Positions 5,984-46,756 of a stretch of DNA of 64,000 nucleotides are shown piece after piece (position 1 is the first letter of the stretch; every line of letters starts with the position of its first letter). Below the pieces are notes generated by a model. That model ran no database searches. It had not been told where the DNA came from and saw nothing but the letters and a program-made list of their open reading frames with translations. Source of the DNA: Clostridia bacterium (GTDB lineage: Bacteria > Bacillota > Clostridia > Christensenellales > Aristaeellaceae); contig JAFXZS010000001.1 in the NCBI GenBank assembly GCA_017541105.1, forward strand, positions 89,727 to 153,726, in the 5' to 3' direction. The position numbers were made by a program, and so were the translations under genes.

Positions 5984-6028
5984 ATAAGTAGCATAATGCG
6001 TGAAGAACAGTACAGAGGAGGATTCCAT

Positions 6029-10288: not shown

Positions 10289-10749
10289 TGGACGCATTGG
10301 AGCTTGTTAAGGAGCTGTCGCAGCGCGATATCGTTGCGTCAGAGCTGCCGATAGGCCTTCAGTTAGGGCTGCCATGGCTTGAACAGCGAAACGGCCGGCT
10401 CTGTATCCGCTTTTTGCCTCACCGGGAGGAATACGCCGAGGATCGCATCTGTTATTATGCTCCTCAGTTTGAAATCGCGTGGGTCTGGCCCTTTACACAC
10501 CTGGCCTCTTTCCGCAACCTGACCTTGGAGAACGAGGTGGACGTATCGCAGCCGCTGTGCACTGTCAGCGCGGATCGTCTTCTCTCTGTTGGAAAGCATG
10601 GGATGGAAGAGTTATATCAAGCGTGCTCGAAAACCCTGACCATTCGGGAAGACACCGGCACGATTACAAGTGCTTGGGTTCGCGCATACCAGAAGAAATA
10701 CATGAGTCTGATCGAATCATTGGATCTGACAGAGCTGTACAACAGATAA
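10288..10749 (+). CDS. Hypothetical protein, translationally coupled
   Basis: A 153-residue soluble protein I do not recognise. It begins MDALELVKELSQRD, has a Trp/Tyr-rich middle (YAPQFEIAWVWPFTHLASF) and a helical C-terminus (WVRAYQKKYMSLIESLDLTELY). It has no signal peptide, membrane segment or Cys cluster. ATG 10288 shares a base with the TGA of the peptidase gene, and AAGGAGG lies about 13 bases upstream, so the two are probably translated in tandem. A chaperone-like or immunity partner of the peptidase is possible from position only. The next gene, the Hsp70-like protein, starts 17 bases downstream. Confidence 0.7.
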   Translation: MDALELVKELSQRDIVASELPIGLQLGLPWLEQRNGRLCIRFLPHREEYAEDRICYYAPQFEIAWVWPFTHLASFRNLTLENEVDVSQPLCTVSADRLLSVGKHGMEELYQACSKTLTIREDTGTITSAWVRAYQKKYMSLIESLDLTELYNR

Positions 10750-10766
10750 CCGGGAGCGTGAGTATT

Positions 10767-30659: not shown

Positions 30660-30764
30660 TTTACTTTCCTGAATTTGTCTGGTAAAATATAGATAATCAG
30701 AACATCACAGCTTCGGCACGGCACAGGGATCATCCCAGGATTTCATCCCAGGGTCAGCTGTGCC
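30660..30764 (+). promoter_or_regulatory. rnf promoter and structured leader
   Basis: TTTACT (30660-30665), 17-base spacer, TAAAAT (30683-30688). The leader holds a long-range stem GGCACAG (30720-30726) with CTGTGCC (30758-30764), with GGGAT/ATCCC inside, just before the rnfC SD. No known riboswitch is recognised. Confidence 0.5.
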
Positions 30765-30795
30765 TCGGCGGGATGGGGAAAGGAGTCGGCATACA

Positions 30796-32145
30796 GTGAG
30801 AAATACTTTTCGCGGCGGCGTTCATCCGGAAGAGCGAAAGGAGCTGAGCCGGGAAGCGCGGCTGCGCCTGTTTAATCCCAGTGGAGAGATGGTATTCCCC
30901 CTGCAGCAGCATATCGGGAAGCCCGCGAAGCCTCTGGTACAGAAGGGGGACGCGGTGCTGGTCGGCCAGCGGATCGCGGAGGCGGACGGAATGGTTTCCG
31001 CGCATATCTATTCCAGCTGTTCCGGCAAGGTAAAGGCAGTGGAGAAACGTCGGGTCCTCAGCGGAGACATGGCGGAATGCATCGTGATTGACAATGACGG
31101 GCAGTTTACCTGCGCGGCGGATTACTCCGTCCGCGACAGCGAAAGCAACCTGTCCGTCAACGAGATCGTGCAGCGGGTGCAGGACGCGGGCGTGGTCGGC
31201 CTCGGCGGCGCCGGTTTTCCGACCCATGTCAAGCTGCGGCCGAAGAATCCGGACGCGATTGAGTACGTCATCGCCAACGGCGCGGAATGCGAACCGTATC
31301 TGACCTGCAACGATCAGCTGATGCGGACCAACGCGCCGGCGATCGTGGAAGGCCTGGAGCTGGTGCTGCGCCTGTTCCCCAACGCGGAAGGCGTGATCTG
31401 CATCGAGGACAATAAGCCCGAAGCCATTCACGCAATGGAGATCGCGGCTTCCGGGAAGCAGCGGATCAGCGTGCGCACCATGATCACCAAGTATCCGCAG
31501 GGCGGTGAGCGGAGCCTGATCCAGGCGGTGACCGGGGTGGATTTCCCGATCAGCAAACTGCCGGCGGATGTGGGCTGCATCGTCCAGAACGTAGGCACCC
31601 TGTACGCGATTCAGCGGGCGGTACTGTACCATGAACCCCTCTTCAGCCAGTGCTTTACACTGACGGGCGAGGCCGTGGCGGAGCCGGCCAACTTCATGGT
31701 CCGGGTGGGCACTTCCTACCGGGAGCTGCTGGAAGCAAACGGCGGGCTGAAACCCGGCACGGAGGCGGTCAAAGCGCTGGCAGGCGGCCCCATGATGGGC
31801 GTCGCCATGGGCTCCCTGGATGTACCGATTCAAAAACAGAACAACGGGCTGACGCTGCTGGCGGAGGATCCGGTGGCGCAGGCGGAAAAGCTGATGACCG
31901 CCTGCCTGCACTGCGGACGGTGCACGACGGTATGCCCGGTCGGCCTGATGCCGCAGCTGATGGCGGACGCGGCGATCGCCGGGGACCTGGACAGATATGA
32001 AAGGAAGCTGTATGGCCTGGAATGCATCCAGTGCGGCAGCTGCACGGTGGCCTGCCCCGCGAAGCGTCCGCTGATGCAGACCTTCAAACAGGCCAAGGCG
32101 GAAATACAGGCAAAGAAAAAGCGTGAAGGAGGCGGTCAGAAATGA
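30796..32145 (+). CDS. rnfC: Rnf complex subunit RnfC
   Basis: A 449-residue peripheral subunit of the ion-pumping ferredoxin:NAD+ oxidoreductase, thought to hold FMN and the NAD site. It starts RNTFRGGVHPEERKELS, has a lipoyl-like N-terminal domain, VVGLGGAGFPTHVKL (the Gly-rich NADH/FMN region) and NGAECEPYLTCND. Near the end are two [4Fe-4S] motifs, CLHCGRCTTVCPVG and CIQCGSCTVACPAK. The start is GTG 30796 with AAAGGAG upstream. The stop overlaps the start of the next gene (ATGA). It is the first gene of an rnfC-DG-E-A-B operon. Confidence 0.95.
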   Translation: MRNTFRGGVHPEERKELSREARLRLFNPSGEMVFPLQQHIGKPAKPLVQKGDAVLVGQRIAEADGMVSAHIYSSCSGKVKAVEKRRVLSGDMAECIVIDNDGQFTCAADYSVRDSESNLSVNEIVQRVQDAGVVGLGGAGFPTHVKLRPKNPDAIEYVIANGAECEPYLTCNDQLMRTNAPAIVEGLELVLRLFPNAEGVICIEDNKPEAIHAMEIAASGKQRISVRTMITKYPQGGERSLIQAVTGVDFPISKLPADVGCIVQNVGTLYAIQRAVLYHEPLFSQCFTLTGEAVAEPANFMVRVGTSYRELLEANGGLKPGTEAVKALAGGPMMGVAMGSLDVPIQKQNNGLTLLAEDPVAQAEKLMTACLHCGRCTTVCPVGLMPQLMADAAIAGDLDRYERKLYGLECIQCGSCTVACPAKRPLMQTFKQAKAEIQAKKKREGGGQK

Positions 32146-33677
32146 ACGGCATGCTGAATCTTTCCTCCGCGCCTCACACGCGGGACAAATGGACAACCCC
32201 GTACATCATGCGCATGGTCACGCTGAGCCTGCTGCCGGCAACCATCGTCGGGATCCTGGTGCACGGCTGGAACGCCTTCGGCATCGTCGCGCTGGCCATC
32301 GTGTCGGCAGTGGCGTCCGAGTGGTGCTTCAACAAAATCTGCCGTAAGCCGGACACGATCTGGGACGGCAGCGCGGTGGTCACGGGACTGCTGCTGGCCC
32401 TGAGCCTCGGGCCGCAGACGCCCCTGTATATTCCCGTGATCGGATCGGTTTTTGCGATCGTGGTCTGCAAGGGATGCTTCGGCGGCCTGGGCAAGAACTT
32501 CATCAACCCGGCCCTGGCGGCCCGGTGCTTCCTGCTGATCTCCTTCGCCAACGCGATGACGATCAAGCCTTCGCTGGACGCAATCGCAACCGCGACGCCG
32601 GTGGGCGCCCTGAAGGCCTTTGAGCAGGTAGACATTACAAAGATGTTCCTGGGTACGGCGGACGGCGTGATCGGCGGTTCCATCCTGGCGCTGCTGGTGG
32701 GCGGCCTGCTGCTGTGGAGCCTGGACATTATCCACGGCCAGATCTGCTTCTCCGTGCTGATCGGATTCACCCTGCTGATCGGCCTGTTCGGCGGGGAAGG
32801 ATTCGCGCCGGGATTCCTGCTGGCACATCTGTGCGGCGGCGGCGTGGTGATGGGCGCCTTCTTCATGGCGACGGACTATGTGACCAGCCCGGTCAGCCGG
32901 CTGGGGCAGTTCATCTACGGCTGCCTGATCGGTGTGCTGGGCGGCATTTTCCGGCTGTGGGGTAACACGGCGGACTCCTTCAGTTACGCGATCATTATCG
33001 GAAACGTCTGCACCCCCCTGATTGACACGTATATCGTTCAGAAACCCCTTGCGTACCGGAAGATCGGAAAGACCCGCAGGGTCAAGCGGGAACCGTTCCG
33101 GATTCCGAAGCCGGTGATCGCGCTGACGCTGATTGCCGCGCTGGCCGGCGTGGCGCTGAGCGGTGTCTTCTCCGTTACCAAGGATCCGATTGAAAAGCAG
33201 GAGCTGGCCGCCAAGACCGCGTCCTACAAGGAAGTGTGCCCCGACGCGGCAACGTTCGAAGTGCCGGACGGCGCGGAGGAGAAGCTGCAGGAGGCGGCGG
33301 GCAGTACAACCCGGGTGAACGAGGCCTATATCGCGAAGGACGCGGCGGGCAATACCATCGGATACGCGCTGAACGTCAGCTCCAAGGGCTTCGGCGGCGA
33401 TGTGACCCTGGCGCTGGGCCTGACCGCGGACGGCTCCATTACGGGCATTTCCTTTACGGAGCTGAACGAAACCGCCGGCCTTGGCATGCGGGCGGATGAA
33501 CCCGCGTTCAAGGAACAGTTCGCCGGCAAGAGCGGTACGCTGAACCTGGTGAAGGGCGACGCGGGCGACGGAGAGATCAGCGCCATCACAGGCGCCTCCG
33601 TAACCTCCAACGCGGTGATCAACGCGGTGAACGAAGGCCTCAGCTTCTACGAGACGGTATTGAAGGGAGGCAACTGA
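32142..33677 (+). CDS. rnfD/rnfG: RnfD-RnfG fusion protein
   Basis: A 511-residue fusion. Residues 1-310 are RnfD: about nine membrane helices and the FMN-attachment region SLDAIATATPVG, where Thr152 is the expected acceptor. Residues about 320-345 are one more helix (IALTLIAALAGVALSGVF), followed by an RnfG FMN-binding domain outside the membrane: GFGGDVTLALGLTADG, ETAGLGMRADEPAFKEQF, and SAITGASVTSN (480-490). The usual Asp of DxxTGAT is Ser, and the acceptor position is Ser486. RnfD and RnfG are adjacent separate genes in the standard order. Here one frame fixes them one-to-one. No stop or slippery site is seen at the junction. Confidence 0.92.
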   Translation: MNGMLNLSSAPHTRDKWTTPYIMRMVTLSLLPATIVGILVHGWNAFGIVALAIVSAVASEWCFNKICRKPDTIWDGSAVVTGLLLALSLGPQTPLYIPVIGSVFAIVVCKGCFGGLGKNFINPALAARCFLLISFANAMTIKPSLDAIATATPVGALKAFEQVDITKMFLGTADGVIGGSILALLVGGLLLWSLDIIHGQICFSVLIGFTLLIGLFGGEGFAPGFLLAHLCGGGVVMGAFFMATDYVTSPVSRLGQFIYGCLIGVLGGIFRLWGNTADSFSYAIIIGNVCTPLIDTYIVQKPLAYRKIGKTRRVKREPFRIPKPVIALTLIAALAGVALSGVFSVTKDPIEKQELAAKTASYKEVCPDAATFEVPDGAEEKLQEAAGSTTRVNEAYIAKDAAGNTIGYALNVSSKGFGGDVTLALGLTADGSITGISFTELNETAGLGMRADEPAFKEQFAGKSGTLNLVKGDAGDGEISAITGASVTSNAVINAVNEGLSFYETVLKGGN

Positions 33678-33678
33678 G

Positions 33679-34425
33679 ATGAAAGCTTATTTCGAACGCC
33701 TCTGGAACGGACTGATTAAGGAAAACCCGGTGCTGGTGCTGATGCTGGGCATGTGCCCGGCGCTGGCGGTATCCACCCAGGCGGCCAACGGCATCGGCAT
33801 GGGCCTGAGCACGCTGGCGGTGCTGGTTCTGAGCAATTTTGTGATCAGCTGCCTGCGGAAGGTGATTCCGGACCAGGTCCGGCTGCCCTCCTACATCGTG
33901 ATCGTGGCCAGCCTGGTGACGGTGACGGAACTGCTGATCAAGGCGTATATCCCCAGCCTGTATGAAGCGCTGGGCATCTACATTCCCCTGATTGTGGTGA
34001 ACTGCATTATCCTGGGCCGGGCAGAAGCCTATGCCAACAAGCATACGCCGCTGCTGTCCGTGATGGACGGCATCGGCATGGGCCTCGGCTTTACGGTGGC
34101 CCTGACGATTGCCGGCGCGCTGCGGGAGCTGCTGGGAACCGGAAAAATCTTCGGCGCGCAGCTGCTGCCGGAAGGGTTTGGGATGACGATCTTTATCCAG
34201 CCTCCGGGAGCCTTCCTGATCTTTGCGCTGATGATCGCGGTGATGAACGCGGCCGGGATCAAGACCCGCCAGCGGAAACTGGTGGAGAGCGGCTGCGACG
34301 GGAACTGCTCCCTGTGCGCTTCCGCCGCGTCGTGCGATCCCGCCGTGAAGACGGAAAAGGCGGAGAAAACCGAAAAAGCGGAAAAAGCTGAGAAGGCGGA
34401 GAAGAAGGGAGGAGCGCGGAAATGA
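33679..34425 (+). CDS. rnfE: Rnf complex subunit RnfE with Cys-rich tail
   Basis: A 248-residue membrane subunit of Rnf with six helices, starting YFERLWNGLIKENPVLVLMLGMCPALAVST, which holds one of the Cys that bind the intramembrane Fe-S cluster shared with RnfA. The core ends near residue 198. It is followed by an unusual tail: CDGNCSLCASAASC (Cys spacing 3, 2, 5), then a Lys/Glu/Ala repeat (TEKAEK units). The tail could bind metal or an Fe-S centre, or may just be a linker. The stop overlaps the start of rnfA. Confidence 0.94.
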   Translation: MKAYFERLWNGLIKENPVLVLMLGMCPALAVSTQAANGIGMGLSTLAVLVLSNFVISCLRKVIPDQVRLPSYIVIVASLVTVTELLIKAYIPSLYEALGIYIPLIVVNCIILGRAEAYANKHTPLLSVMDGIGMGLGFTVALTIAGALRELLGTGKIFGAQLLPEGFGMTIFIQPPGAFLIFALMIAVMNAAGIKTRQRKLVESGCDGNCSLCASAASCDPAVKTEKAEKTEKAEKAEKAEKKGGARK

Positions 34426-35000
34426 AGAGCCTGATTATGATCATCATTGCCGGGGCGCTGATCAACAACGTGGTCCTGAATCAGTTCCTGGGCATCTGCT
34501 CCTTCCTGGGTGTCAGCAAACAGATGAAAGCCTCCATCAGCCTGGGCGGCGCGGTGATTTTCGTCATCACGATCGCGTCCGCGGTGGCGAGCCTGCTGTA
34601 TGATTTCGTGCTGAAGCCGCTGGGCATGGACTTCATGAAGACAATTATCTTCATTCTGGTGATTGCCGCCCTGGTGCAGATCGTGGAGATGTTCCTGAAA
34701 AAGAAATCCCCCGCGGTCTATAACGCGCTGGGCATCTACCTTCCCCTGATTACAACCAACTGCGCCGTGCTGGGCGTGGCCCTGACCAACGTGCAGGATG
34801 GGTACAACTTTATCCAGTGTGTGGCCAGCGGCTTCGGAACGGCTGTGGGCTATACGATCGCCATTGTGCTGCTGGCGGGAATCCGCAGCCGGATCAACGA
34901 AAAGGACCTGCCGGCGCCGCTGCGGGGAGCGCCCATCGTGATGATCGCGGCCGCCCTGATGTCCATCGCGTTTATGGGCTTCGGCGGGCTGAAGCTGTAA
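34422..35000 (+). CDS. rnfA: Rnf complex subunit RnfA
   Basis: A 192-residue membrane protein with six helices, inverted in topology relative to RnfE, which it resembles. Typical stretches are VLNQFLGICSFLGVSKQ, with one intramembrane cluster Cys, and LPLITTNCAVLGVAL, with the other. Length and sequence match RnfA/NqrE. ATG overlaps the rnfE stop by four bases and GGAGGAG lies upstream. Together with RnfE it should carry electrons across the membrane to the flavin subunits. Confidence 0.96.
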   Translation: MKSLIMIIIAGALINNVVLNQFLGICSFLGVSKQMKASISLGGAVIFVITIASAVASLLYDFVLKPLGMDFMKTIIFILVIAALVQIVEMFLKKKSPAVYNALGIYLPLITTNCAVLGVALTNVQDGYNFIQCVASGFGTAVGYTIAIVLLAGIRSRINEKDLPAPLRGAPIVMIAAALMSIAFMGFGGLKL

Positions 35001-35013
35001 GGAGGGTCGAGGG

Positions 35014-35808
35014 ATGAATATTATCTGGATTACGACCCTGGTAATTGCCGTAATCGGCGTGATTGTGGGAGTGGGCCTGGTTTTCACGGGAAAGAAATTC
35101 GCCGTGGAAGTGGACGAGCGGGAAGTCGCCGTCCGGGAAAAGCTGCCGGGCAACAACTGCGGCGCCTGCGGCTTCGCGGGATGCGACGCGCTTGCCGGCG
35201 CGATTTCCCGGGGAGAGGCACCCGTGAACGCGTGCCCGGTCGGCGGGGCGCCCGTGGCGCAGGCCATCGGGGATATCATGGGAACGACGGCGGGAGCTCT
35301 GGAACGCAAGACGGCGTTTGTGGCCTGCAAGGGCACCTGCGGCGTGACGAAGAATCAGGGCAACTACATCGGAATCCGGGACTGCCGGGCGGCGGTGCTC
35401 TCCGGGATGAACGTGACGGACTGCAATTACGGATGTCTGGGCTTCGGCAGCTGCGCGGAAGTATGCCCGGAACAGGCGATTTCCGTCCGTGACGGAGTGG
35501 CTGTCGTGAACCGGAACCGCTGTGTCAGCTGCGGGCTTTGCGTCAAGACCTGCCCCCGGGGCCTGATCTCCCTGATTCCGGAAAGCAAAATCATCCGGGT
35601 ACAGTGTTCGAACAAGGACAAGGGCCCCATGGTCAAGAAGGTTTGCCAGGCCGGATGCATCGGCTGCGGGCTGTGTGCCAGGCAGTGCGAATCGGAAGCC
35701 ATCGAGTTTGACGGAACGCTGGCCCGCGTGAATCCCGAGAAGTGCACGCTGTGCGGCAAGTGCGCTGAAAAGTGTCCGGTGAAGGTTATAACGACGACCC
35801 CGGTCTGA
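35014..35808 (+). CDS. rnfB: Rnf complex subunit RnfB (polyferredoxin)
   Basis: A 264-residue Fe-S protein, the entry point for electrons from reduced ferredoxin. An N-terminal helix anchors it (IIWITTLVIAVIGVIVGVG). Next is the RnfB/ASF1 domain with CGACGFAGCDAL and CP, then a Cys-rich segment (CKGTCG, CNYGCLGFGSCAEVCP) and two further CxxCxxCxxxC pairs: CVSCGLCVKTCP, CIGCGLCARQC, CTLCGKCAEKCP. The cluster count is high, as in clostridial RnfB. It is the last rnf gene, and the NrfA-flavin protein starts only 14 bases after its stop. Confidence 0.95.
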   Translation: MNIIWITTLVIAVIGVIVGVGLVFTGKKFAVEVDEREVAVREKLPGNNCGACGFAGCDALAGAISRGEAPVNACPVGGAPVAQAIGDIMGTTAGALERKTAFVACKGTCGVTKNQGNYIGIRDCRAAVLSGMNVTDCNYGCLGFGSCAEVCPEQAISVRDGVAVVNRNRCVSCGLCVKTCPRGLISLIPESKIIRVQCSNKDKGPMVKKVCQAGCIGCGLCARQCESEAIEFDGTLARVNPEKCTLCGKCAEKCPVKVITTTPV

Positions 35809-35822
35809 AAGGGAGAGAAAAC

Positions 35823-38800
35823 ATGAATGAATTCAAAAGAAAGCAGTGGATCCGGATCGGCCTGAGCATCGCGGCGGTCCTTGTGGCCGTGCTGTTCCTG
35901 ACGGGTATCGTCGGCGGTAAATCCATGACTTACCAGGTGGAGGAACCGCTGACTCCCATGATGGAAGGCATTACGGTCACCATGGGGCAGAACGCGGAAA
36001 ACAGCACCGCGGAGGATTACCTGGAACAGGATCCGTACCTGGTCAACATCTATGAAGGCTTCGGATTCTCCAAGGATTATATGGCGGCCCGGGGCCATGC
36101 CTATACCCTGGAGGATGTAGCCAATACCGGCCGCCCCCATCCCAAAGCCAACTGCATCACCTGCAAAACGCCGGATTTCACCAAAATGGTGAATGAGGAA
36201 GGCGTCGAGGTCTACAGCCGCGCCTTTGATGAAGTGATGGGGCAGATGACGCAGGCGATCTCCTGCTACACGTGCCACGGGGACGACAAAGGCAACAACG
36301 GCCAGATTGTCATCACCCACAGCTATGTGGAGAAGGCGCTGGGGGAGAACGCTTCACAGATTGACCCGAAGACGCTGAACTGCGGCCAGTGCCATATCGA
36401 ATATTACTTTACCCCGGAAGACAGCGAGACCATGATGCCGTATCACGACCAGGACGGGATGACGCCGGAGGCAATCCTGGCCTATTACGACGAGATGGGC
36501 TTCAAGGACTGGGAGCAGCCCGGGACAGGCACCGCGATGCTGAAAGCGCAGCATCCCGAGATGGAAACCTTCCTGGCCAGCACGCACGCGAAGATGGGGC
36601 TGAACTGTGCCAGCTGCCACATGGCGGAGGAAACGGCAGAGGACGGCAGCACCTATCACAGCCATTATCTGGTGAGTCCGCTGCAGAATGAGACACTGAT
36701 GGCAACCTGCGCCGCCTGCCACGGCAGCGCGGACGCGGCCCGGACGCTGGTCACCTCAACCCAGGAGCGGGTGACCGCCAGGGAAACGGAGGTCGGCAAC
36801 CGGCTCAGCGGCCTGAAGGATACGCTGACCGAAGCTGTTTCCAAGGGCGAGATGACGGGGGAAGAACTGGACGCGGTGCGCAAACTGCACCGGGAAGCGC
36901 AGTGGTTCTTCGACTTCTGTTATGTGGAAAACTCCGAAGGCGCGCATAATTCTTCCCTGGCCATGCGCTGCCTGGATACCGCGGACGGGAAGATCACGGA
37001 AGCTATGGCACTGCTGACCGGCGAAGTGCCGGAGGAAACGGCGGAAGCTGAACAGGCCGGCAGCGGAGCGGAACTGACCGCGTCCGAGAAGGGCTTCGGC
37101 GGAGACGTAACGGTGCATGTGGCGCTGGCGGAGGACGGGACGGTTCAGACGCTGGCGATCGACACGCCGAACGAGACGGCCGGCCTGGGCCAGCGGGCGT
37201 CTGAAGAAGCATTTACAAGCCAGTTCATCGGCAAGGCGGCGCCGTTCGCATACGGTGAAAACGGCATCGACGCGCTGTCCGGCGCGACGATTACCTCGGA
37301 AGCGGCTCTGAAGGCGATCAATCAGGCGGCTGCCGGAAACGCGGAAACCGCACCGGAAGAAAGCCCAGCGGAACCTGAACAGGCGGATGGCGGAGCGGAA
37401 CTGACCGCGTCCGAGCAGGGCTTCGGCGGAGACGTAACGGTGCATGTGGCGCTGGCGGAGGACGGGACGGTTCAGACGCTGGCGATCGACACGCCGAACG
37501 AGACGGCCGGCCTGGGCCAGCGGGCGTCGGAAGAAGCATTTACAAGCCAGTTTATCGGCAAGGCCGCGCCGTTCGCATACGGTGAAAACGGCATCGACGC
37601 GCTGTCCGGCGCGACGATTACCTCGGAAGCGGCTCTGAAGGCGATCAATCAGGCGGCTGCCGGAAACGCGGAAGCCGCGCCGGAAGAAAGCCCGGCAGAG
37701 CCCGCGGCAGAAGAGGAAAAGACTGAAGAGCCCGCGGCGGAAGAGCAGCCGGCAGAAGAAAAGGCGGAGCCTGAAGCTGAAACGGAGAAGGCCGAAGCGG
37801 AGCCTGCGGAAGCCGCCGAAAAGACAGAGAAGGCGGACAACAGCCAGGCGGTGTACGGCAGCTATCTGGCGGAGAAAGAAACCAACTTCAGCATCATCCG
37901 GGTACTCGTCAGCACGAAGAACGGGGAAATCACCGGCTGCAGGATCCTCTCGGAAGCGAAGAGCGAAGGCAGCGACTTCCTGACCGATGAAATCCGGAGC
38001 GCGTGGGCGAAGGAGATCGTGGCGAACCAGACCGCGGAAACGGACGCGATCACCGGCGCGACGCTGCAGTTCTCCTCCGGCGCCGTGCGGGAAGCCGTTG
38101 CGGAGATCCTGAGCCAGGTCTCCGGCGGCAGCGCGGAACCGGCAGAAGAGGAAAAAGCTGAAGAGCCCGCAGCGGAAGAAAAGGCGGAGCCCGAAGCTGA
38201 AACGGAGAAGGCCGGAGAGAAGCCTGCAGAAACTGCTGAAAAGACGGAGAAGGCGGACAACGGGCAGGCGGTGTACGGCAGCTATCTGGCGGAGAAGGAA
38301 ACCAACTTCAGCATCATCCGGGTGTTCGTCAGCACGAAGAACGGGGAAATCACCGGCTGCAGGATTCTCTCGGAAGCGAAGAGCGAAGGCAGTGATTTCC
38401 TGACGGATGAAATCCGGAGCGCGTGGGCGAAGGAGATCGTGGCGAACCAGACCGCGGAAACGGACGCGATCACCGGCGCGACGCTGCAGTTTTCCTCCGG
38501 CGCCGTGCGGGAAGCCGTCGCGGAGATCCTGAACCGGGTCAACGGTACGGCGGAACCGGCGGAAGAGGAAAAAGCGGAAGAACCTGCGGCGGAAGAGCAG
38601 CAGGCAGAAGAAAAGGCGGAACCGGCGGAAGAGACGCCGGCGGAACCCGCGGCTGAAGAGGAAAAGGCTGAAGAACCCGCGGCGGAAGAGCAGCCGGCAG
38701 AAGAAAAGGCGGAACCTGAAGCTGAAACGGAGAAGGCCGGAGAGGAGCCTGCGGAAACCGCCGAAAAGACGGAGAAGGCAGACAACGGGCAGGCGGTGTA

Positions 38801-39077
38801 CGGCAGCTATCTGGCGGAGAAGGAAACCAACTTCAGCATCATCCGGGTGTTCGTCAGCACGAAGAACGGGGAAATCACCGGCTGCAGGATCCTCTCGGAA
38901 GCGAAGAGCGAAGGCAGCGACTTCCTGACGGATGAAATCCGGAGCGCGTGGGCGAAGGAGATCGTGGCGAACCAGACCGCGGAAACGGACGCGATCACCG
39001 GCGCGACGCTGCAGTTTTCCTCCGGCGCCGTGCGGGAAGCCGTGGCGGAGATTCTGGAGAAGGTACAGGGGAAATAA
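35823..39077 (+). CDS. nrfA: Cytochrome c nitrite reductase (NrfA) fused to five FMN-binding domains
   Basis: A 1084-residue secreted, membrane-anchored fusion. Residues 1-30 hold an uncleaved anchor. Residues 45-405 are NrfA, which reduces nitrite to ammonium with six electrons: Cys111-ITC-Lys115 (active-site haem with the Lys ligand unique to NrfA), then CxxCH at 148, 187, 262 and 296. Two near-identical RnfG-like FMN domains follow, with DALSGAT at 483-489 and 592-598. Then come three FMN domains of a second type, with DAITGAT at 741-747, 881-887 and 1056-1062, set between Glu/Ala/Pro/Lys linkers. All five motifs match the ApbE flavin-attachment signal. No NrfH is nearby; Rnf is directly upstream and system II haem ligation genes directly downstream. 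RBS AAAGGGAG precedes ATG 35823. Confidence 0.93.
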   Translation: MNEFKRKQWIRIGLSIAAVLVAVLFLTGIVGGKSMTYQVEEPLTPMMEGITVTMGQNAENSTAEDYLEQDPYLVNIYEGFGFSKDYMAARGHAYTLEDVANTGRPHPKANCITCKTPDFTKMVNEEGVEVYSRAFDEVMGQMTQAISCYTCHGDDKGNNGQIVITHSYVEKALGENASQIDPKTLNCGQCHIEYYFTPEDSETMMPYHDQDGMTPEAILAYYDEMGFKDWEQPGTGTAMLKAQHPEMETFLASTHAKMGLNCASCHMAEETAEDGSTYHSHYLVSPLQNETLMATCAACHGSADAARTLVTSTQERVTARETEVGNRLSGLKDTLTEAVSKGEMTGEELDAVRKLHREAQWFFDFCYVENSEGAHNSSLAMRCLDTADGKITEAMALLTGEVPEETAEAEQAGSGAELTASEKGFGGDVTVHVALAEDGTVQTLAIDTPNETAGLGQRASEEAFTSQFIGKAAPFAYGENGIDALSGATITSEAALKAINQAAAGNAETAPEESPAEPEQADGGAELTASEQGFGGDVTVHVALAEDGTVQTLAIDTPNETAGLGQRASEEAFTSQFIGKAAPFAYGENGIDALSGATITSEAALKAINQAAAGNAEAAPEESPAEPAAEEEKTEEPAAEEQPAEEKAEPEAETEKAEAEPAEAAEKTEKADNSQAVYGSYLAEKETNFSIIRVLVSTKNGEITGCRILSEAKSEGSDFLTDEIRSAWAKEIVANQTAETDAITGATLQFSSGAVREAVAEILSQVSGGSAEPAEEEKAEEPAAEEKAEPEAETEKAGEKPAETAEKTEKADNGQAVYGSYLAEKETNFSIIRVFVSTKNGEITGCRILSEAKSEGSDFLTDEIRSAWAKEIVANQTAETDAITGATLQFSSGAVREAVAEILNRVNGTAEPAEEEKAEEPAAEEQQAEEKAEPAEETPAEPAAEEEKAEEPAAEEQPAEEKAEPEAETEKAGEEPAETAEKTEKADNGQAVYGSYLAEKETNFSIIRVFVSTKNGEITGCRILSEAKSEGSDFLTDEIRSAWAKEIVANQTAETDAITGATLQFSSGAVREAVAEILEKVQGK
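37065..37718 (+). repeat. Two 327-bp tandem repeats (first type of FMN domain)
   Basis: The unit containing GAACTGACCGCGTCCGAG recurs at exactly 327 bases (37071 and 37398), 109 codons each, with few differences. It encodes an RnfG-like FMN domain from ELTASE to the AAAGNAE linker. Near identity at the DNA level indicates recent duplication or gene conversion. Confidence 0.9.
37831..39070 (+). repeat. Three direct repeats of the second FMN domain type
   Basis: The anchor GTGTACGGCAGCTATCTGGC occurs at 37851, 38271 and 38796, each followed by about 270 nearly identical bases that encode YGSYLAEKETNFSIIRV to the AVREAVAEIL end. Between them are variable-length Glu/Pro/Ala linker repeats (offsets 420 and 525 bases). 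Confidence 0.9.
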
Positions 39078-39098: not shown

Positions 39099-39132
39099 AA
39101 GGAGACCGCTGCCTGTGCGGCGGTCTCCTTTT
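39099..39132 (+). terminator. Terminator between nrfA and resB
   Basis: AAGGAGACCGC (39099-39109) pairs perfectly with GCGGTCTCCTT (39120-39130), ending in four T. Partial read-through would lower resB-ccsA relative to nrfA. Confidence 0.82.
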
Positions 39133-39160
39133 GCAAAACAGAAAAGGATTGGCTTTCGTC

Positions 39161-40438
39161 ATGAAGAAAATCGGGAAATTCCTCTCCTCCATGGGTTTTG
39201 CGGTGGCTTTGCTGGTGATTCTGGCAGCTGCCTGCGCGCTGAGTTCCCTGGTGGAGCAGGGACTGACGCAGGAAACCTACGCGGCCCGTTACGGCGAGGG
39301 AATCGCTTCCGTGATTATGGCGCTGCAGGTGAACGACGCCTATCACAGCGTCTGGTTTATCGTGCTGAGCGGCTTTCTGTGCCTGAATCTGATTCTGTGC
39401 AATCTCATTCGTTTTCCCGCATTCGTAAAGCGCTGGCGGAAGGAAAAGGATCCGGAAGCCGTGAATACTGCCGGAGATCTCGGGGATACGGAGACAGGAT
39501 CCCCGGAACAGGTGCTTTCCGCAATGCGGATGCCGGACGTGAAACGCTGCAGGACGGCTGAGGGCAGAGAAGCGCTGTTTTCAAACCGGAACGCGATCGG
39601 CCAGTGGGGCGCCTGGATCTGCCATCTGGGCGTGCTGCTTCTGATTGCCGGGTTTGCCCTGGGGCAGATGACGCTGCAGGAAACGGTGATTTGGGGTGTT
39701 CCCGGGGATACCCGGATCATGCAGGAGACCGGGCTGGCAATCACGATCGATGATTTCCGGACGGAGACGCGGGAGGACGCGAGTGTAGCCCAGTATGTTA
39801 CGGAGATTACCGTGACAGATCCGGCAACAGGGAAATCGGAACAGGCGTCTGTCAGCGTCAATCATCCCGCGGTCGCCGGCGGGTTTCACCTGTATCAGAA
39901 TAACACGGGGCCGGCGGCTTCCGCGTCGGTGGTGCGGGACGGAAAGGAAATTCAGCGGAAAACGCTGCTTCCGCAGCAGACGATGGCGGAAAGCGTGCTG
40001 GGGCTGGAGGATCAGCCGGAGTACGCATTTTACTTCGCGGGCGTGAGAACCATGCGGGAAGAGGGACAGGAGGAGCGGACACTGTATCTCTACGATCTGT
40101 ACCGGAGCGGCGTGCTTCAGCAAGGATATTATTTCCTTGGGGAAGGCAGCGTGACGGTCGGAGAGGATCAGATCACTTTTACTCCCCGGACGTTTACCCT
40201 GCTCGTTGCACGGAAGGACCGCTTTGCATGGCTGGCGCTGCTGGGCGGACTGATTACCCTGGCCGGCCTGGCCCTGGCGTTCTATCTGCAGCCGAAGGCA
40301 CTATGGGCTGTCCGGCAGGAAGACGGGAAATGGATTCTCCGCGGCCGGTGCCGAAAGGGGAAAACCCTGATGAAGGAACAGCTGGAGGAAGCGGTCCGCG
40401 CGGCAGAAAAGGAGGAAAAACAAGTTGCAGAACACTGA
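39161..40438 (+). CDS. resB: Cytochrome c biogenesis protein ResB (system II)
   Basis: A 425-residue membrane protein that with CcsA exports haem and ligates it to CxxCH apocytochromes. It starts with a helix (FLSSMGFAVALLVILAAACAL), then a second (SVWFIVLSGFLCLNLILCNLIRF) and a third (WGAWICHLGVLLLIAGFALGQ, whose His is a candidate haem ligand). A large extracytoplasmic beta domain (about 190-350) is followed by a final helix (FAWLALLGGLITLAGLALAFYLQP). ATG 39161 has a modest SD; the TTG further up is within the terminator. Its stop overlaps the ccsA start. It matures the adjacent NrfA. Confidence 0.88.
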   Translation: MKKIGKFLSSMGFAVALLVILAAACALSSLVEQGLTQETYAARYGEGIASVIMALQVNDAYHSVWFIVLSGFLCLNLILCNLIRFPAFVKRWRKEKDPEAVNTAGDLGDTETGSPEQVLSAMRMPDVKRCRTAEGREALFSNRNAIGQWGAWICHLGVLLLIAGFALGQMTLQETVIWGVPGDTRIMQETGLAITIDDFRTETREDASVAQYVTEITVTDPATGKSEQASVSVNHPAVAGGFHLYQNNTGPAASASVVRDGKEIQRKTLLPQQTMAESVLGLEDQPEYAFYFAGVRTMREEGQEERTLYLYDLYRSGVLQQGYYFLGEGSVTVGEDQITFTPRTFTLLVARKDRFAWLALLGGLITLAGLALAFYLQPKALWAVRQEDGKWILRGRCRKGKTLMKEQLEEAVRAAEKEEKQVAEH

Positions 40439-41240
40439 GAACATTCTGTTTACCCTGGCGATGATCGGATACTTTGCCGCGATGGCATGCTCCTTTTTGT
40501 TTGTCTCCGTGAAAAAGGACGGCTTTGCGAAAGCCGGCGAAGCTTTGCAGATTGTTTCGCTGGCACTGCATACCGGAGCCCTGGTTCTGCGGGGCCTGGC
40601 GGCAGGACGGCTGCCGATGACCAACCAGTACGAGTTTGCCACCTGCTTCGCCTGGGCATTGTGTTTCGTCAGCCTCGTGTTCATCCGGAAGTATCGCTTT
40701 CCCGTGCTGAGCGTGTTCGCCATGCCGATCATTTTCCTGATTATGGGATACGCGGCGATGCAGAGCCGGGATATCAAGCCGCTGATGCCCGCGCTGCAGA
40801 GCGGATGGCTGGCGTTTCATGTATCCACGGCCATTATCAGCTACGGTGCTTTCGGCGTCAGCGCGGCGCTGGGGGCAATCTTCCTGCTGCGGGGCAGGAT
40901 CCGGGAAAACAGTTTCCTGGATCAGCATATTCCCGGGGAGGCCAAACTAGACCTGATTGCGTACCGGAGCGTTTGCCTGGGTTTGCTTTTCCTGACGCTG
41001 ACGATTCTGACAGGAGCGATCTGGGCGGAACGGGCCTGGGGAAGCTACTGGAGCTGGGACCCGAAAGAAACGTGGTCCCTGGTAACCTGGATTGTTTACG
41101 CGGTCTATCTGCATCTCCGGCTGCGCAGAGGCTGGAAAGGCCGGGCGGCGGCGATCTTTGCCGTGGCGGGCTTTGTATGCGTGATTTTCACCTATATCGG
41201 TGTGAATACCCTGCTGCCGGGGATTCACAGCTACGCGTAA
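40425..41240 (+). CDS. ccsA: Cytochrome c biogenesis protein CcsA (system II haem lyase)
   Basis: A 271-residue membrane protein with about eight helices. The haem-handling WWD motif is present as WGSYWSWDPKETWSL, with flanking His in AFHVSTAII and GIHSYA. Together with ResB it forms the synthase that attaches haem to NrfA outside the membrane. It uses a TTG start at 40425: GGAGG lies 9 bases upstream and no ATG fits. It overlaps resB by 14 bases. These two are the only c-type cytochrome maturation genes seen, and NrfA the only client in the window. Confidence 0.93.
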   Translation: MQNTENILFTLAMIGYFAAMACSFLFVSVKKDGFAKAGEALQIVSLALHTGALVLRGLAAGRLPMTNQYEFATCFAWALCFVSLVFIRKYRFPVLSVFAMPIIFLIMGYAAMQSRDIKPLMPALQSGWLAFHVSTAIISYGAFGVSAALGAIFLLRGRIRENSFLDQHIPGEAKLDLIAYRSVCLGLLFLTLTILTGAIWAERAWGSYWSWDPKETWSLVTWIVYAVYLHLRLRRGWKGRAAAIFAVAGFVCVIFTYIGVNTLLPGIHSYA

Positions 41241-42527: not shown

Positions 42528-42579
42528 GAATACCAGAAGGACAATCCCATAACCGACGACCATGATACAGGAGGTACAA

Positions 42580-44337
42580 ATGAAAAAACTGATTTGCCTG
42601 ATTCTCTCTCTTGCCATGCTGTTCGGCGTGTCCGCCCTTGCGGAGACAGCGCCGGAACAGGCGATTTTTACACCAGGCACCTATGAAGCTGAAGCACAGG
42701 GAATCTTTGTTCCCGTAAAAGTGCAGATTACTGTGGATGAAAACACCATTACCAATGTGCTGATTGACGCGACCGGTGAAACACCCGAACTGGGCGGCCT
42801 GGCCGCGGGCAAGCTGTCGGAGTCGATCCTGCTGGCGCAGACGCCGAACGTGGACGTGCTGAGCGGGGCCACCGTGACCAGCAACGCGATCATCAAGGCT
42901 GCGACGGAAGCCCTCGAGGCCGCAGGAGCGGATATCGCCGTGCTGGACGCCAACCGCAGGGACCTGGGCGGGGAAGACACGCCCAAGGGCGAACAGACCG
43001 TGGATACCGAAGTGGTAGTCATCGGCGCGGGCGGCGCGGGCATGGCGGCCGCGATCATGCTGCACCAGGCAGGGAAGGATTTCGTGCTCCTGGAGAAAAT
43101 GCCCTACGCGGGCGGCAACACCACCAAGGCAACCGGCGGTATGAACGCCGCGGAAACCCATTATCAGAAAGAGCAGGGAATCGAGGACTCCACCGCCCTC
43201 TTCGCCGCGGATACCATGAAGGGCGGACATGCCCTGAACGATCCGGCGCTGGTGGCCACGATGGCCAACCTCTCGTCGGACGCGATTGACTGGCTGGATT
43301 CCATCGGCGCGGCGCTGCCCAAGATTTCCTTCTCCGGCGGCGCTTCCGTCAACCGGATTCACGCGCCGGAGGACGGCTCCGGCGTCGGCGGCTTCCTGGT
43401 GGACCGCTTCTCCGCGAAGCTTGCGGAGCTGGGAGTCGAGATCCTGTACAACACCAAGGCAACGGAACTGCTGACAGACGGGGAAGGCAAGATCTGCGGC
43501 GTGAAGGCGGAGGGTGAGGACACCAACTATACCTTCAACTGCAAGGCTGTCATCCTGGCGACCGGCGGTTTCGGCGCGAATGAGGAGATGTATACCCAGT
43601 ACCGGCCGGACCTGAAGGGCACCGTGACCACGAACGCCCCCGGCGCGACGGGCGACGGCATCCTCATGGCGCAGGCACTGGGGGCCGACCTGGTGGATAT
43701 CGAGCAGATTCAGCTGCACCCCACCGTGGAACAGACGACGTCCATGCTGATTACGGAATCCGTTCGCGGTGACGGCGCCATCCTGGTCAACCAGCAGGGC
43801 GTGCGCTTCACCAATGAACTGCTGACCCGCGACGCGGTTTCCGCGGCGGAACTGGCGCAGGAAGGCCAGTACGCGTACATCCTGTTTGACCAGAACCTGC
43901 GGGATCACCTGAAGGCGATTGAAAAGTACGTGAAGGCGGACCTGACCGTTCAGTCCGATACCATTGAAGGACTGGCGGAGCAGCTGGGCATCGATCCCGC
44001 CACGCTGGCGAAGACGCTTGCGGACTGGAACGAATGCGTCGCGAACCAGCGGGATCCGGAGTTCGGCCGTTCCACCGGCATGAACGCGGACCTGACCACC
44101 CCGCCGTATTACGCCATCAAGGTGGCCCCCGGGATCCATCATACGATGGGCGGCGTCAAGATTGACACGGCGGCGCAGGTCATCAACACCGAAGGCCAGC
44201 CGATTCCCGGCCTGTTTGCCGCGGGCGAAGTCACCGGCGGCGTGCACGGCGGAAACCGCCTGGGCGGCAATGCCGTGGCGGACATCGTCATCTTCGGCCG
44301 CATCGCCGCGCAGAGCGCGATCGACTATATCAAGTAA
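42580..44337 (+). CDS. Exported flavinylated fumarate/urocanate-reductase-like flavoprotein
   Basis: A 585-residue protein with a signal peptide (LICLILSLAMLFGVSALAE). The first domain (about 25-105) binds FMN covalently: Asp92-VLSGAT98. The rest is a flavocytochrome-c-type FAD domain: VVVIGAGGAGMAAAIMLHQAG near 145, KMPYAGGNTTKATGGMNA, and the active-site region QLHPTVEQ, SVRGDGAILVN, RFTNEL, HHTMGGVKID, then GNRLGGNAVADI. The same architecture serves extracytosolic reductases of fumarate, urocanate, methacrylate or cinnamate-type acids; which substrate applies cannot be told. Electrons probably come from a membrane flavin route such as Rnf. RBS AGGAGG precedes ATG 42580. Confidence 0.9.
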   Translation: MKKLICLILSLAMLFGVSALAETAPEQAIFTPGTYEAEAQGIFVPVKVQITVDENTITNVLIDATGETPELGGLAAGKLSESILLAQTPNVDVLSGATVTSNAIIKAATEALEAAGADIAVLDANRRDLGGEDTPKGEQTVDTEVVVIGAGGAGMAAAIMLHQAGKDFVLLEKMPYAGGNTTKATGGMNAAETHYQKEQGIEDSTALFAADTMKGGHALNDPALVATMANLSSDAIDWLDSIGAALPKISFSGGASVNRIHAPEDGSGVGGFLVDRFSAKLAELGVEILYNTKATELLTDGEGKICGVKAEGEDTNYTFNCKAVILATGGFGANEEMYTQYRPDLKGTVTTNAPGATGDGILMAQALGADLVDIEQIQLHPTVEQTTSMLITESVRGDGAILVNQQGVRFTNELLTRDAVSAAELAQEGQYAYILFDQNLRDHLKAIEKYVKADLTVQSDTIEGLAEQLGIDPATLAKTLADWNECVANQRDPEFGRSTGMNADLTTPPYYAIKVAPGIHHTMGGVKIDTAAQVINTEGQPIPGLFAAGEVTGGVHGGNRLGGNAVADIVIFGRIAAQSAIDYIK

Positions 44338-44399: not shown

Positions 44400-44936
44400 T
44401 CAGCCGACCGCGGCGGCGCCGCGCTCCATCGCCTGCCGGTTGATGGGCAGGAGATGTTCCTTCTTCGGGCCGAAGGTGGCTTTCAGGGCCTCCATCGCGG
44501 AATCGATGGAGACCACCCCGGTCTTCGCCAGGATGGCGCCGAGCATGACCATGTTGGCCGTGCGGGCATTCCCCAGTTCTTCGGCGATGCCGTTGCAGTC
44601 CACGGGGATGGCGGTGATGTCGTCCCGGTCGGGGGTGATGTCGATCAGGGAAGAGTTGTAGAGCATGATGCCGCCCTTTTCCATGGCCGGCGTGAACTTG
44701 ATCATGCTGGGTTTGTTCATGATCACGGCGATCGGGATCTCCGTCACCAGGGGGGAACCGATGGGCTCATCCGAGATGACCACGGCGCAGTTTGCCTCTC
44801 CGCCGCGCATTTCAGGGCCGTAAGAGGGCATCCAGGATACGTTCATCCCGTCATGCATGGCGGCCTTGGCCAGCAGCTGGCCGATCAGCAGGACGCCCTG
44901 GCCGCCGAAACCGGCAATCAGAAATTGAGCTTCCAT
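44400..44936 (-). CDS. 2-oxoacid:ferredoxin oxidoreductase, gamma subunit
   Basis: A 178-residue subunit of a four-subunit 2-ketoacid:ferredoxin oxidoreductase, last gene of the operon. It starts QFLIAGFGGQGVLLIGQLLAK, has WMPSYGPEMRGGEANCAVVIS and NARTANMVMLGAI, the normal signatures of the gamma (CoA-binding) family. The complex oxidises a 2-ketoacid to acyl-CoA and CO2 while reducing ferredoxin, which could feed Rnf. Spacing to the beta gene is 3 bases. Whether the acid is 2-oxoisovalerate or 2-oxoglutarate cannot be settled here. Confidence 0.92.
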   Translation of the reverse strand: MEAQFLIAGFGGQGVLLIGQLLAKAAMHDGMNVSWMPSYGPEMRGGEANCAVVISDEPIGSPLVTEIPIAVIMNKPSMIKFTPAMEKGGIMLYNSSLIDITPDRDDITAIPVDCNGIAEELGNARTANMVMLGAILAKTGVVSIDSAMEALKATFGPKKEHLLPINRQAMERGAAAVG

Positions 44937-44939
44937 GGA

Positions 44940-45677
<738 letters not shown>

Positions 45678-45679
45678 GA

Positions 45680-46756
45680 TTATTCTCCCTCCTTCGCCAG
45701 GGCTTCCACCTGGGTGATGATCTCCCGGACGGTGGGCACGATGCCGCCGGTGCGGCCGAAGAAATGAACGGGCTTTTTGCCTTCCACTGCCAGCTTCACG
45801 TCATCCACCATCTGGCCCATGGACATTTCCACGGTCAGGAAGGCTTTGGCATGCTCCGCCGCCTTCGCGATAGGCGCGGCGGGGAAGGGCCACAGGGTGA
45901 TAGGCCGGATCAGGCCGGCACGGATGCCTTCCGCCCGGAGCTTGCGCATGGCGCTGCGGGCAATGCGGGCAGTGGTCCCGTAGGCAACGATGACATAATC
46001 GGCGTCTTCGGTCATTTCCTCCTGCCAGCGGCATTCGGTCTGCTCCATGACGGCGTATTTCTCATACAGGTGGTTGACGTGCTTCTCCAGCACGGCGGGA
46101 TCGATATACAGCGAGTTGATAATCGCCCTGTCCCGCCCGCAGCCGGGCTTCCAGCCGGTGGCCGCCCAGGTCTTGGGCGGAAGATCCTTGTTCACCCGGG
46201 GCTCAGGCATCTCCACGGGCTCCATCATCTGGCCGATCAGGCCGTCGCCCATGACGAGCACGGGATTGCGGTACTTGTCCGCCAGGTCAAAGGCGTCCAT
46301 GGTCAGCTCCACGGCTTCCTGCACGGAGGAAGGCGCCAGGACCAGCATCCTGTAATCCCCGTGGCCGCCGCCGCGGGTGGACTGGTAGTAGTCGCTCTGC
46401 GCGGGCTGAATGGATCCCAGGCCGGGGCCGCCGCGGACCATGTTTACGATGACGCAGGGCAGCTCCGCCCCGACGATATAGCTGATGCCTTCCTGCTTCA
46501 GGGAAATTCCCGGGCTGGAAGAGGAAGTCATGACCCGGGCGCCGGCGCCGGCCGCGCCGTAAACCATGTTGATGGCGGCGACTTCACTCTCCGCCTGCAG
46601 GAAGCAGCCGCCCTCCATCTTCGGCAGGCGCTTGGACATGTATTCGGGAATCTGGTTCTGGGGGGTGATGGGATAACCGAAGAAGAAGCGGCATCCGGCC
46701 TGGATGGCGGCTTCCGCGATCGCTTCATTCCCCTTCATGAGCATTTTCTGACCCAT
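45680..46756 (-). CDS. vorB: 2-oxoacid:ferredoxin oxidoreductase, alpha subunit (VorB-like)
   Basis: A 358-residue alpha subunit. It begins [30 protein letters not shown], which is typical of VorB-type 2-ketoisovalerate enzymes, and continues [47 protein letters not shown], and [18 protein letters not shown]. Branched-chain 2-ketoacids from amino-acid fermentation would be oxidised to acyl-CoA with ferredoxin reduction. A 2-oxoglutarate enzyme (KorA) remains possible. The ATG has AGGAAG upstream and follows the small ferredoxin gene by 15 bases. Confidence 0.93.

Follow-up and report, generated by a model that had tools for sequence, protein, structure and literature searches.

NrfA nitrite reductase encoded with the Rnf complex in Clostridia: a probably quinone-free ammonification module, fused to flavin domains in one lineage

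The pentahaem nitrite reductase NrfA is served by three kinds of partner, NrfH, CymA, and NrfB with NrfCD, all of which are linked to quinol according to the accessible text of a 2025 review (PMC12285233). How would such an enzyme receive electrons when it is joined to five flavin mononucleotide (FMN)-binding domains and encoded directly behind the genes of the Rnf complex? This question is raised by a gene at positions 35823-39077 of the window, as we call the whole stretch of 64,000 nucleotides analyzed here, which covers positions 89,727 to 153,726 of contig JAFXZS010000001.1 (assembly GCA_017541105.1) of a Clostridia bacterium (Christensenellales, Aristaeellaceae). The source is a metagenome-assembled genome (MAG) of 62% completeness. 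Based on domain searches, a survey of related loci and the gene content of related genomes, Rnf-linked NrfA is a real, conserved and under-described module. We consider it quite likely that this module carries out nitrite ammonification, probably independent of quinones, and that flexible FMN domains act in it as shuttles in the lineage of the window.

The fusion gene is a frame of 1084 residues with an ATG at 35823 and a stop at 39077, and AGGGAGAG is located a few bases 5' of the ATG. It encodes, in this order, a membrane anchor, a pentahaem NrfA domain and, as found by Pfam search, five FMN_bind domains. The hydrophobic N-terminal segment is likely to be the anchor, with the extracytoplasmic side outward. 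The NrfA domain was recognized by Pfam Cytochrom_C552 (PF02335, residues 59-409, E 6.7e-80), and the solved structure most similar to it is 3ubr (E 3.7e-50). Its haem motifs stand in the order of NrfA, with CITCK at residue 111 (CxxCK, window position 36153) followed by the four CxxCH motifs CYTCH 148, CGQCH 187, CASCH 262 and CAACH 296 (positions 36264, 36381, 36606 and 36708). The active site is intact: alignment with 3ubr and 1gu6 identified Arg90, Tyr194 and His244, and Arg, Tyr and His are the second-sphere active-site residues of NrfA (PMC12285233). Two NCBIfam models, both narrow and of the E. coli NrfA type, gave scores below their cut-offs (NF008339, 223.7 bits against 595; TIGR03152, 187.3 bits against 692.5). 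FMN_bind matched the protein in five stretches (E 1.7e-48), and all five domains contain a flavin motif, DALSGAT at residues 483 and 592 and DAITGAT at residues 741, 881 and 1056, at which flavin would be loaded as haem would be at the cytochrome motifs. The RnfG models TIGR01947 and NF045876 matched the first two FMN domains (two stretches each). The linkers are acidic and of the Ala/Pro/Glu type; the three long ones comprise 47-82 residues with 34-40% Asp+Glu. The preliminary description of this DNA, made by a model from the sequence alone, had already read a complete NrfA, two RnfG-like and three other flavin domains and flexible acidic linkers in one frame, and all of these points are confirmed.

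The gene order in the window is rnfC, rnfDG, rnfE, rnfA, rnfB, the fusion gene, resB and ccsA, and the Rnf set is complete, comprising RnfA, B, C, D, E and G, cofactor domains included. Coordinates and Pfam matches also agree with the 14-base gap after rnfB, which ends at 35808, and with the downstream resB-ccsA pair, both reported before. A point that had been missed is that rnfD and rnfG form a single frame, with the RnfD part at about residues 7-302 and the RnfG part at about residues 325-511. The latter carries the flavin site ITGAS and scores 101.9 bits on TIGR01947, against a cut-off of 102. The complex therefore owns an RnfG flavin domain apart from the five tethered ones.

The completeness of the source MAG and the near identity of the FMN repeats as DNA (97% between domains 1 and 2; 80% and 93% to the reference for the other three) could suggest an assembly artefact, but the fusion is common to independent records. 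Among the surveyed loci (L numbers, see below), L034 is 74% identical overall and has the same order, NrfA first and five FMN domains after it; L036 has NrfA and three FMN domains, and L035 is ended by a contig edge. Fusions were also found in genomes of the same genus that consist of one or two contigs (G002, G023, G035 and G044). An artificial join, which the preliminary description had named as a way to overturn its reading, is refuted, and an artefact is scarcely credible. The number of repeats is the only part in doubt as to assembly, since near-identical copies may have been miscounted in the window MAG. The NrfA and FMN domains are conserved beyond chance: the ratio of nonsynonymous to synonymous substitution rates was 0.08-0.10 for the NrfA domain against L034, L035 and L036; in the comparison with L034, the two kinds of FMN domain gave 0.26 and 0.30. 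Not all copies stay flavin sites, as the final two motifs of L034 are DAVAGAT and DAVARAT.

To survey the neighbourhood of related enzymes, GTDB species genomes were scanned with the NrfA part alone, and the best 80 of 102 confirmed matches gave 79 loci. With genus, family and order genomes included, 103 NrfA rows were collected, of which 93 distinct complete rows were kept once 10 identical copies had been removed. The presence of CxxCK was a condition for keeping a row, and three incomplete rows were left out. L138 and L139 are located at contig ends, and the NrfA-like protein of L091 has only four haem motifs; the missing one, judged by motif order, is the third, of the CGQCH type. The scan reaches close relatives only (identity 52% or more); PF02335 occurs in 96 of 398 genomes elsewhere in the phylum, where the neighbours of these genes lie outside the survey. 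As the query was free of any Rnf part, an association between Rnf and NrfA was not built in. Rnf genes were nevertheless present on the same locus in 82 of the 93 rows, and rnfB was the nearest annotated upstream frame in 78. ResB was found in 90 rows and CcsA in 88. RnfD is fused to an FMN domain in each of its 77 frames at these loci, with a strict [ST]GA[ST] site in 66 of them. Five of the 11 rows without Rnf (L045, L070, L084, L089 and L090) were judged uninformative because the contig edge lies at the gene start or a short way before it, so that six rows remain informative.

The active-site Arg, Tyr and K-x-Q-H-P-E motifs were found in 93/93 rows. This conservation bears on the possibility that the haem domain is a conduit to outside acceptors and not a nitrite reductase. 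A multi-haem RnfG has indeed been drawn as a branched route of transfer through cytochromes (PMC8238504), but neither the CxxCK of every kept row nor these motifs would be needed by a conduit, and we consider this explanation very improbable. Nitrite would be the substrate.

The supply of electrons was further examined in 45 genomes of the genus (G000-G044), in 24 of which NrfA is present. The NapC/NrfH family (PF03264) was found in 0/45, with a positive control in E. coli. The preliminary description had stated that neither NrfH nor NrfB is present, and had counted a co-expressed NrfH gene elsewhere as a refutation; for the NrfH family its statement holds across the genus, while NrfB and NrfCD were absent among the window genes examined, the genomes not having been searched for either. 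UbiA family proteins were detected in ten of the 45 genomes at E up to 0.001 (nine over the cut-off), and were not found in 20 of the 24 NrfA genomes, including six of at least 95% completeness (G001, G002, G008, G023, G035 and G044), among which are the four of one or two contigs named above. Both known menaquinone routes need the UbiA family, so that these 20 genomes probably lack a quinone. ResB occurs in exactly the same 24 genomes as NrfA, and cytochrome c maturation therefore seems to be kept for NrfA. RnfD was found once in 37 genomes, in none of the other eight, and never twice, so that no Rnf other than the NrfA-linked one was detected in the cell. By frame length, rnfDG is fused in 28 genomes, rnfD is separate in eight (312-367 aa) and one frame is truncated; linked NrfA was present in 18 of the 28 but in none of the eight. 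The fusion of rnfD with rnfG was considered as a trait peculiar to NrfA operons, and this was rejected, since it is also found in genus members without NrfA. Two genomes of the phylum sample, G321 (556 aa) and G139 (542 aa), likewise have frames that span nearly the whole rnfDG query with no stop. The flavin transferase gene apbE, whose absence from the genome had been proposed as a counter-argument, was indeed not found in the window's own MAG (62% complete), but it is present in 40/45 genus genomes and in 13/13 of the most complete ones.

Four observations weigh against an Rnf-driven NrfA with flavin shuttles of its own. Six loci have no Rnf nearby (L052, L098 and L134-L137). UbiA is present in four of the 24 NrfA genomes. 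Ferrochelatase (PF00762), a haem synthesis enzyme of the kind that the preliminary description had proposed to look for, was found in 0/45 genus genomes, a real gap for a protein with five haem sites; haem must be imported or otherwise made. Finally, flavin arrays are kept without NrfA in relatives, so the array is not for NrfA alone. The first two would fit a different donor for NrfA, with the Rnf neighbourhood reflecting co-regulation or chance. This seems improbable in view of the Rnf genes in 82/93 loci under two NCBI phylum labels, the missing NrfH family and the repeated fusions with flavin domains. The electron route from Rnf to NrfA is thus well supported by the conserved operon, the lack of the NrfH family and, in most cases, of UbiA, the apbE genes of the genus and the intact active sites. 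Direct transfer was presented as an inference in the preliminary description, and it is kept as such here.

The role of the tethered flavins is a separate matter. Fused FMN domains are present in 24 of the 93 rows, as counted with a small profile built from the window domains that weak domains may escape. The 69 rows without them comprise 67 plain NrfA genes, one double NrfA and one NrfA in frame with RnfB. In the double one, two NrfA domains lie within one frame (L076:8980-11430); the other is an open frame of 707 aa (L095:7948-10071), either real or produced by a stop lost in assembly. Trees of NrfA and RnfC were built by a quick method with support from the Shimodaira-Hasegawa-like approximate likelihood ratio test (SH-aLRT) only, and the outgroup of the NrfA tree consisted of seven loci, all on long branches. 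In the NrfA tree, 22 of the 24 fused rows fall in one clade of 24 rows, L077 (FMN-FAD reductase-NrfA) branches among rows without a fusion that carry the label Oscillospiraceae, and L137 sits in a separate, deeper clade of the same genus, so at least three origins of the flavin-NrfA fusion are indicated on this tree. Within Rnf-linked NrfA, the flavin tethers of the window look like the addition of one lineage. Nine Spirochaetota-titled rows form one clade nested among clostridial rows (SH-aLRT 99), and the five in the RnfC tree likewise form one clade, in line with operon transfer; the Spirochaetota assignment comes from the titles that NCBI gives to records of MAGs, and some titles in the set (Erysipelothrix, Lachnospiraceae) look unreliable.

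The position of NrfA among the flavin domains varies widely. None precedes it in the window, L034-L036 and L118; one in L114 and L116; two in L044 and L059, and at least two in L070, a lower bound because this gene is cut at its start; three in L046, L050 and L073; four in L038, L053 and L119; and five in L039, L040, L120, L121 and L137. A fixed relay would hardly tolerate such variation, whereas flexible tethers on acidic linkers would. The ordered tethered wire of the preliminary description is not favoured, given this variation, the arrays without NrfA and the majority of loci without fused flavins. In L137 (5326-11791), apbE (PF02424, E 3.8e-58) is directly followed by the FMN5-NrfA gene and then by ccsA-resB; the start of the protein looks RnfG-like by eye, and no Rnf genes were found within the 18 kb covered.

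Three relatives placed close to the window by the RnfC tree, G013, G011 and G004 (L170, L172 and L173), have an anchored flavin array after rnfB, no NrfA at the locus and no ResB anywhere in the genome. A flavocytochrome-like gene follows the array in L170 and L173; none was found in L172 within the stretch covered. In L123, L133 and L077, FMN_bind, FAD_binding_2 (fumarate-reductase-like) and Cytochrom_C552 domains stand in single frames, so that both reductases share one polypeptide. The window itself has a reductase of the flavocytochrome c type 1.3 kb downstream of ccsA, a possible second user of the array. These arrangements raise the distinct possibility, which we put forward tentatively, that the array is a hub shared by several extracytoplasmic reductases, above all the flavocytochrome c-like enzyme, and that NrfA is an optional head. 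L172, with no flavocytochrome gene, does not fit this well, and the 69 loci without fused flavins imply that the link between Rnf and NrfA does not need an array. Such a hub is compatible with the Rnf-to-NrfA route but shifts the main purpose of the array, which we interpret most readily as a platform that several outward reductases share.

Based on these results, the following mechanism is proposed for the Rnf-linked route. Reduced ferredoxin would donate electrons to RnfB, from which they would pass through the iron-sulphur centre of RnfA/E to the extracytoplasmic RnfG flavin, fused to RnfD, in a step that pumps Na+ or H+. At RnfG the electrons would branch to NrfA instead of returning solely via RnfD and RnfC to NAD, and NrfA, anchored beside Rnf, would reduce nitrite to ammonium. 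In the window lineage, the flexible FMN domains most likely act as swinging, exchangeable shuttles and as a small electron store that connect RnfG with the haems of NrfA and, probably, with the flavocytochrome c-like reductase encoded nearby. The path from ferredoxin through flavins to nitrite is downhill. The nitrite/ammonium couple stands at about +340 mV. Ferredoxin is placed at about -450 mV and NAD at -320 mV (PMC11889175), and a three-flavin protein at -184 mV (PMC10339131). In a mechanism published for the Rnf complex of Acetobacterium, sodium release is coupled to the step in which the RnfA/E cluster passes electrons to the flavin of RnfG, and RnfD is regarded as an electron carrier only (PMC11889175). 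If this applies here, ferredoxin electrons that exit at RnfG would still drive pumping, but NADH electrons entering via RnfC and RnfD would by-pass the coupled step. Ion pumping, which had been claimed for both donors, is therefore proposed for ferredoxin and is not supported for NADH.

The same path may serve another purpose, the detoxification of nitrite, NO or hydroxylamine in place of energy gain. NrfA enzymes also act on NO and hydroxylamine. NapA over the cut-off was found in 0/45 genus genomes, with one sub-threshold match in G038, other nitrate reductases not having been searched, so that nitrite would come from outside or via a route that was not searched. The tie of NrfA to the cell's only Rnf pump in 82/93 loci would be costly for detoxification alone, and we regard this purpose as possible but somewhat doubtful. 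Energy gain by Rnf-linked ammonification is preferred.

The architecture itself is not new. Multi-flavinylated RnfGs with a multi-haem domain were reported in Christensenellales (Meheust 2021, eLife, Fig. 6H, PMC8238504), and these are very likely the same protein group, so it was partly published in 2021: an Rnf cluster and several FMN domains with a multi-haem domain in one protein are common to both, apparently in the same taxon. In the text available from that paper, the haem domain is not called NrfA, and an active site, an operon survey and tests for NrfH or quinone are not given; the nitrite reductase named there is NirS, with NapH-like systems. In comparison with NrfA served by NrfH, CymA or NrfB-NrfCD, the pentahaem domain, CxxCK and the Arg/Tyr/His site are shared, and maturation by ResB/CcsA (system II) is as for NrfHA (PMC12285233), but the classical partners tap the quinol pool and their place is taken here by Rnf and flavin domains. 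MmcA of Methanosarcina acetivorans is also a multihaem cytochrome encoded with Rnf, from which it takes electrons on the outer side; in contrast to NrfA, it is a heptahaem protein that conducts electrons to methanophenazine or outside acceptors, without a flavin fusion, and is not a nitrite reductase (PMC11024163). A 2025 Rnf review cites the MmcA case, and the word nitrite is absent from its accessible text (PMC12174285). Flavin domains joined to an extracytoplasmic reductase, as well as several covalent FMN, are known from fumarate-reductase-like and multi-FMN proteins (PMC8238504, PMC10339131); the reductase here differs in being pentahaem NrfA in a locus with a complete Rnf. In the sections seen of two rumen papers, NrfA is treated but not coupled to Rnf (PMC6479175, PMC6776011). 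The Rnf-NrfA operon is named in no title or abstract found, most subscription papers and supplements being outside reach.

The features are collected in Table 1. Convergent to the locus, a 2-oxoacid:ferredoxin oxidoreductase, a possible source of reduced ferredoxin, is encoded by three genes (POR, TPP_enzyme_C and POR_N/PFOR_II) at 44403-46756 on the minus strand of the window. Farther away, the window encodes a HerA/DUF87-type ATPase of 914 aa (5996-8737) and a protein that contains Sel1 repeats and weakly matches Hsp70 (10479-12779).

Table 1. Coordinates of the features, in the window unless a locus is given
Feature	Position	Strand	Evidence
rnfC	30760..32145, first base from listed GTG start	+	TIGR01945 E 4.2e-145; RnfC_N, Complex1_51K, SLBB
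rnfD-rnfG, single frame	32142..33677	+	PF03116 E 7.3e-94; FMN_bind E 1.6e-16; TIGR01946, TIGR01947 stretches
rnfE	33679..34425	+	TIGR01948 E 6.2e-72
rnfA	34422..35000	+	TIGR01943 E 3.4e-75
rnfB	35014..35808	+	TIGR01944 E 2.1e-28, over cut-off; FeS, 4Fe-4S domains
Fusion gene (anchor, NrfA, five FMN_bind)	35823..39077	+	Open reading frame translation and Pfam
Hydrophobic N-terminal segment, residues 9-31	35847..35915	+	Read from translation
NrfA domain, residues 59-409	35997..37049	+	PF02335; alignments with 3ubr, 1gu6; motif positions
FMN domain 1, RnfG-like, DALSGAT at residue 483	37092..37331	+	FMN_bind best stretch 424-503
FMN domain 2, RnfG-like, DALSGAT at residue 592	37401..37655, ends approximate	+	
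FMN domain 3, DAITGAT at residue 741	37854..38138, ends approximate	+	
FMN domain 4, DAITGAT at residue 881	38274..38555, ends approximate	+	
FMN domain 5, DAITGAT at residue 1056	38799..39074, ends approximate	+	
resB, cytochrome c maturation	39131..40438	+	PF05140 E 1.5e-47
ccsA (CcsB-type in NCBIfam naming), haem handling for cytochrome c	40425..41240	+	PF01578 E 1.5e-54; TIGR03144 E 9e-78
FMN_bind and FAD_binding_2 reductase, flavocytochrome c type	42562..44337	+	Pfam, NCBIfam
Two-reductase frame	L123:2241-5924	-	Pfam domains
Two-reductase frame	L133:8267-11218	-	Pfam domains
Two-reductase frame	L077:7078-10047	+	Pfam domains

On balance, we favour the view that Rnf provides a fourth electron input to NrfA. 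This would amount to anaerobic respiration without quinones: the Na+/H+ pump Rnf would be the donor, ion pumping would be kept with ferredoxin electrons and fermenters would gain nitrite as an outlet. It would be spread in the ruminant gut among Clostridia and, going by the titles of the records, Spirochaetota. In one genus it would have developed into a modular platform with tethered flavins, in which NrfA and a fumarate-reductase-like enzyme can replace each other as the head and in some cases occur together on one polypeptide. The natural constructs, with NrfA after zero to five flavins, an array without NrfA or NrfA without an array, are suited to tests of wire, shuttle and store. Some uncultured ruminant-gut bacteria carry NrfA in an Rnf gene set, which would allow them to use nitrite without quinone carriers. 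If this is true, quinone-less cells with Rnf as donor would mean that fermentative gut bacteria, too, are capable of nitrite ammonification and have an outside acceptor for ferredoxin electrons, with ion pumping. It would also bear on nitrite toxicity and, as background, on nitrate feeding against methane in ruminants.

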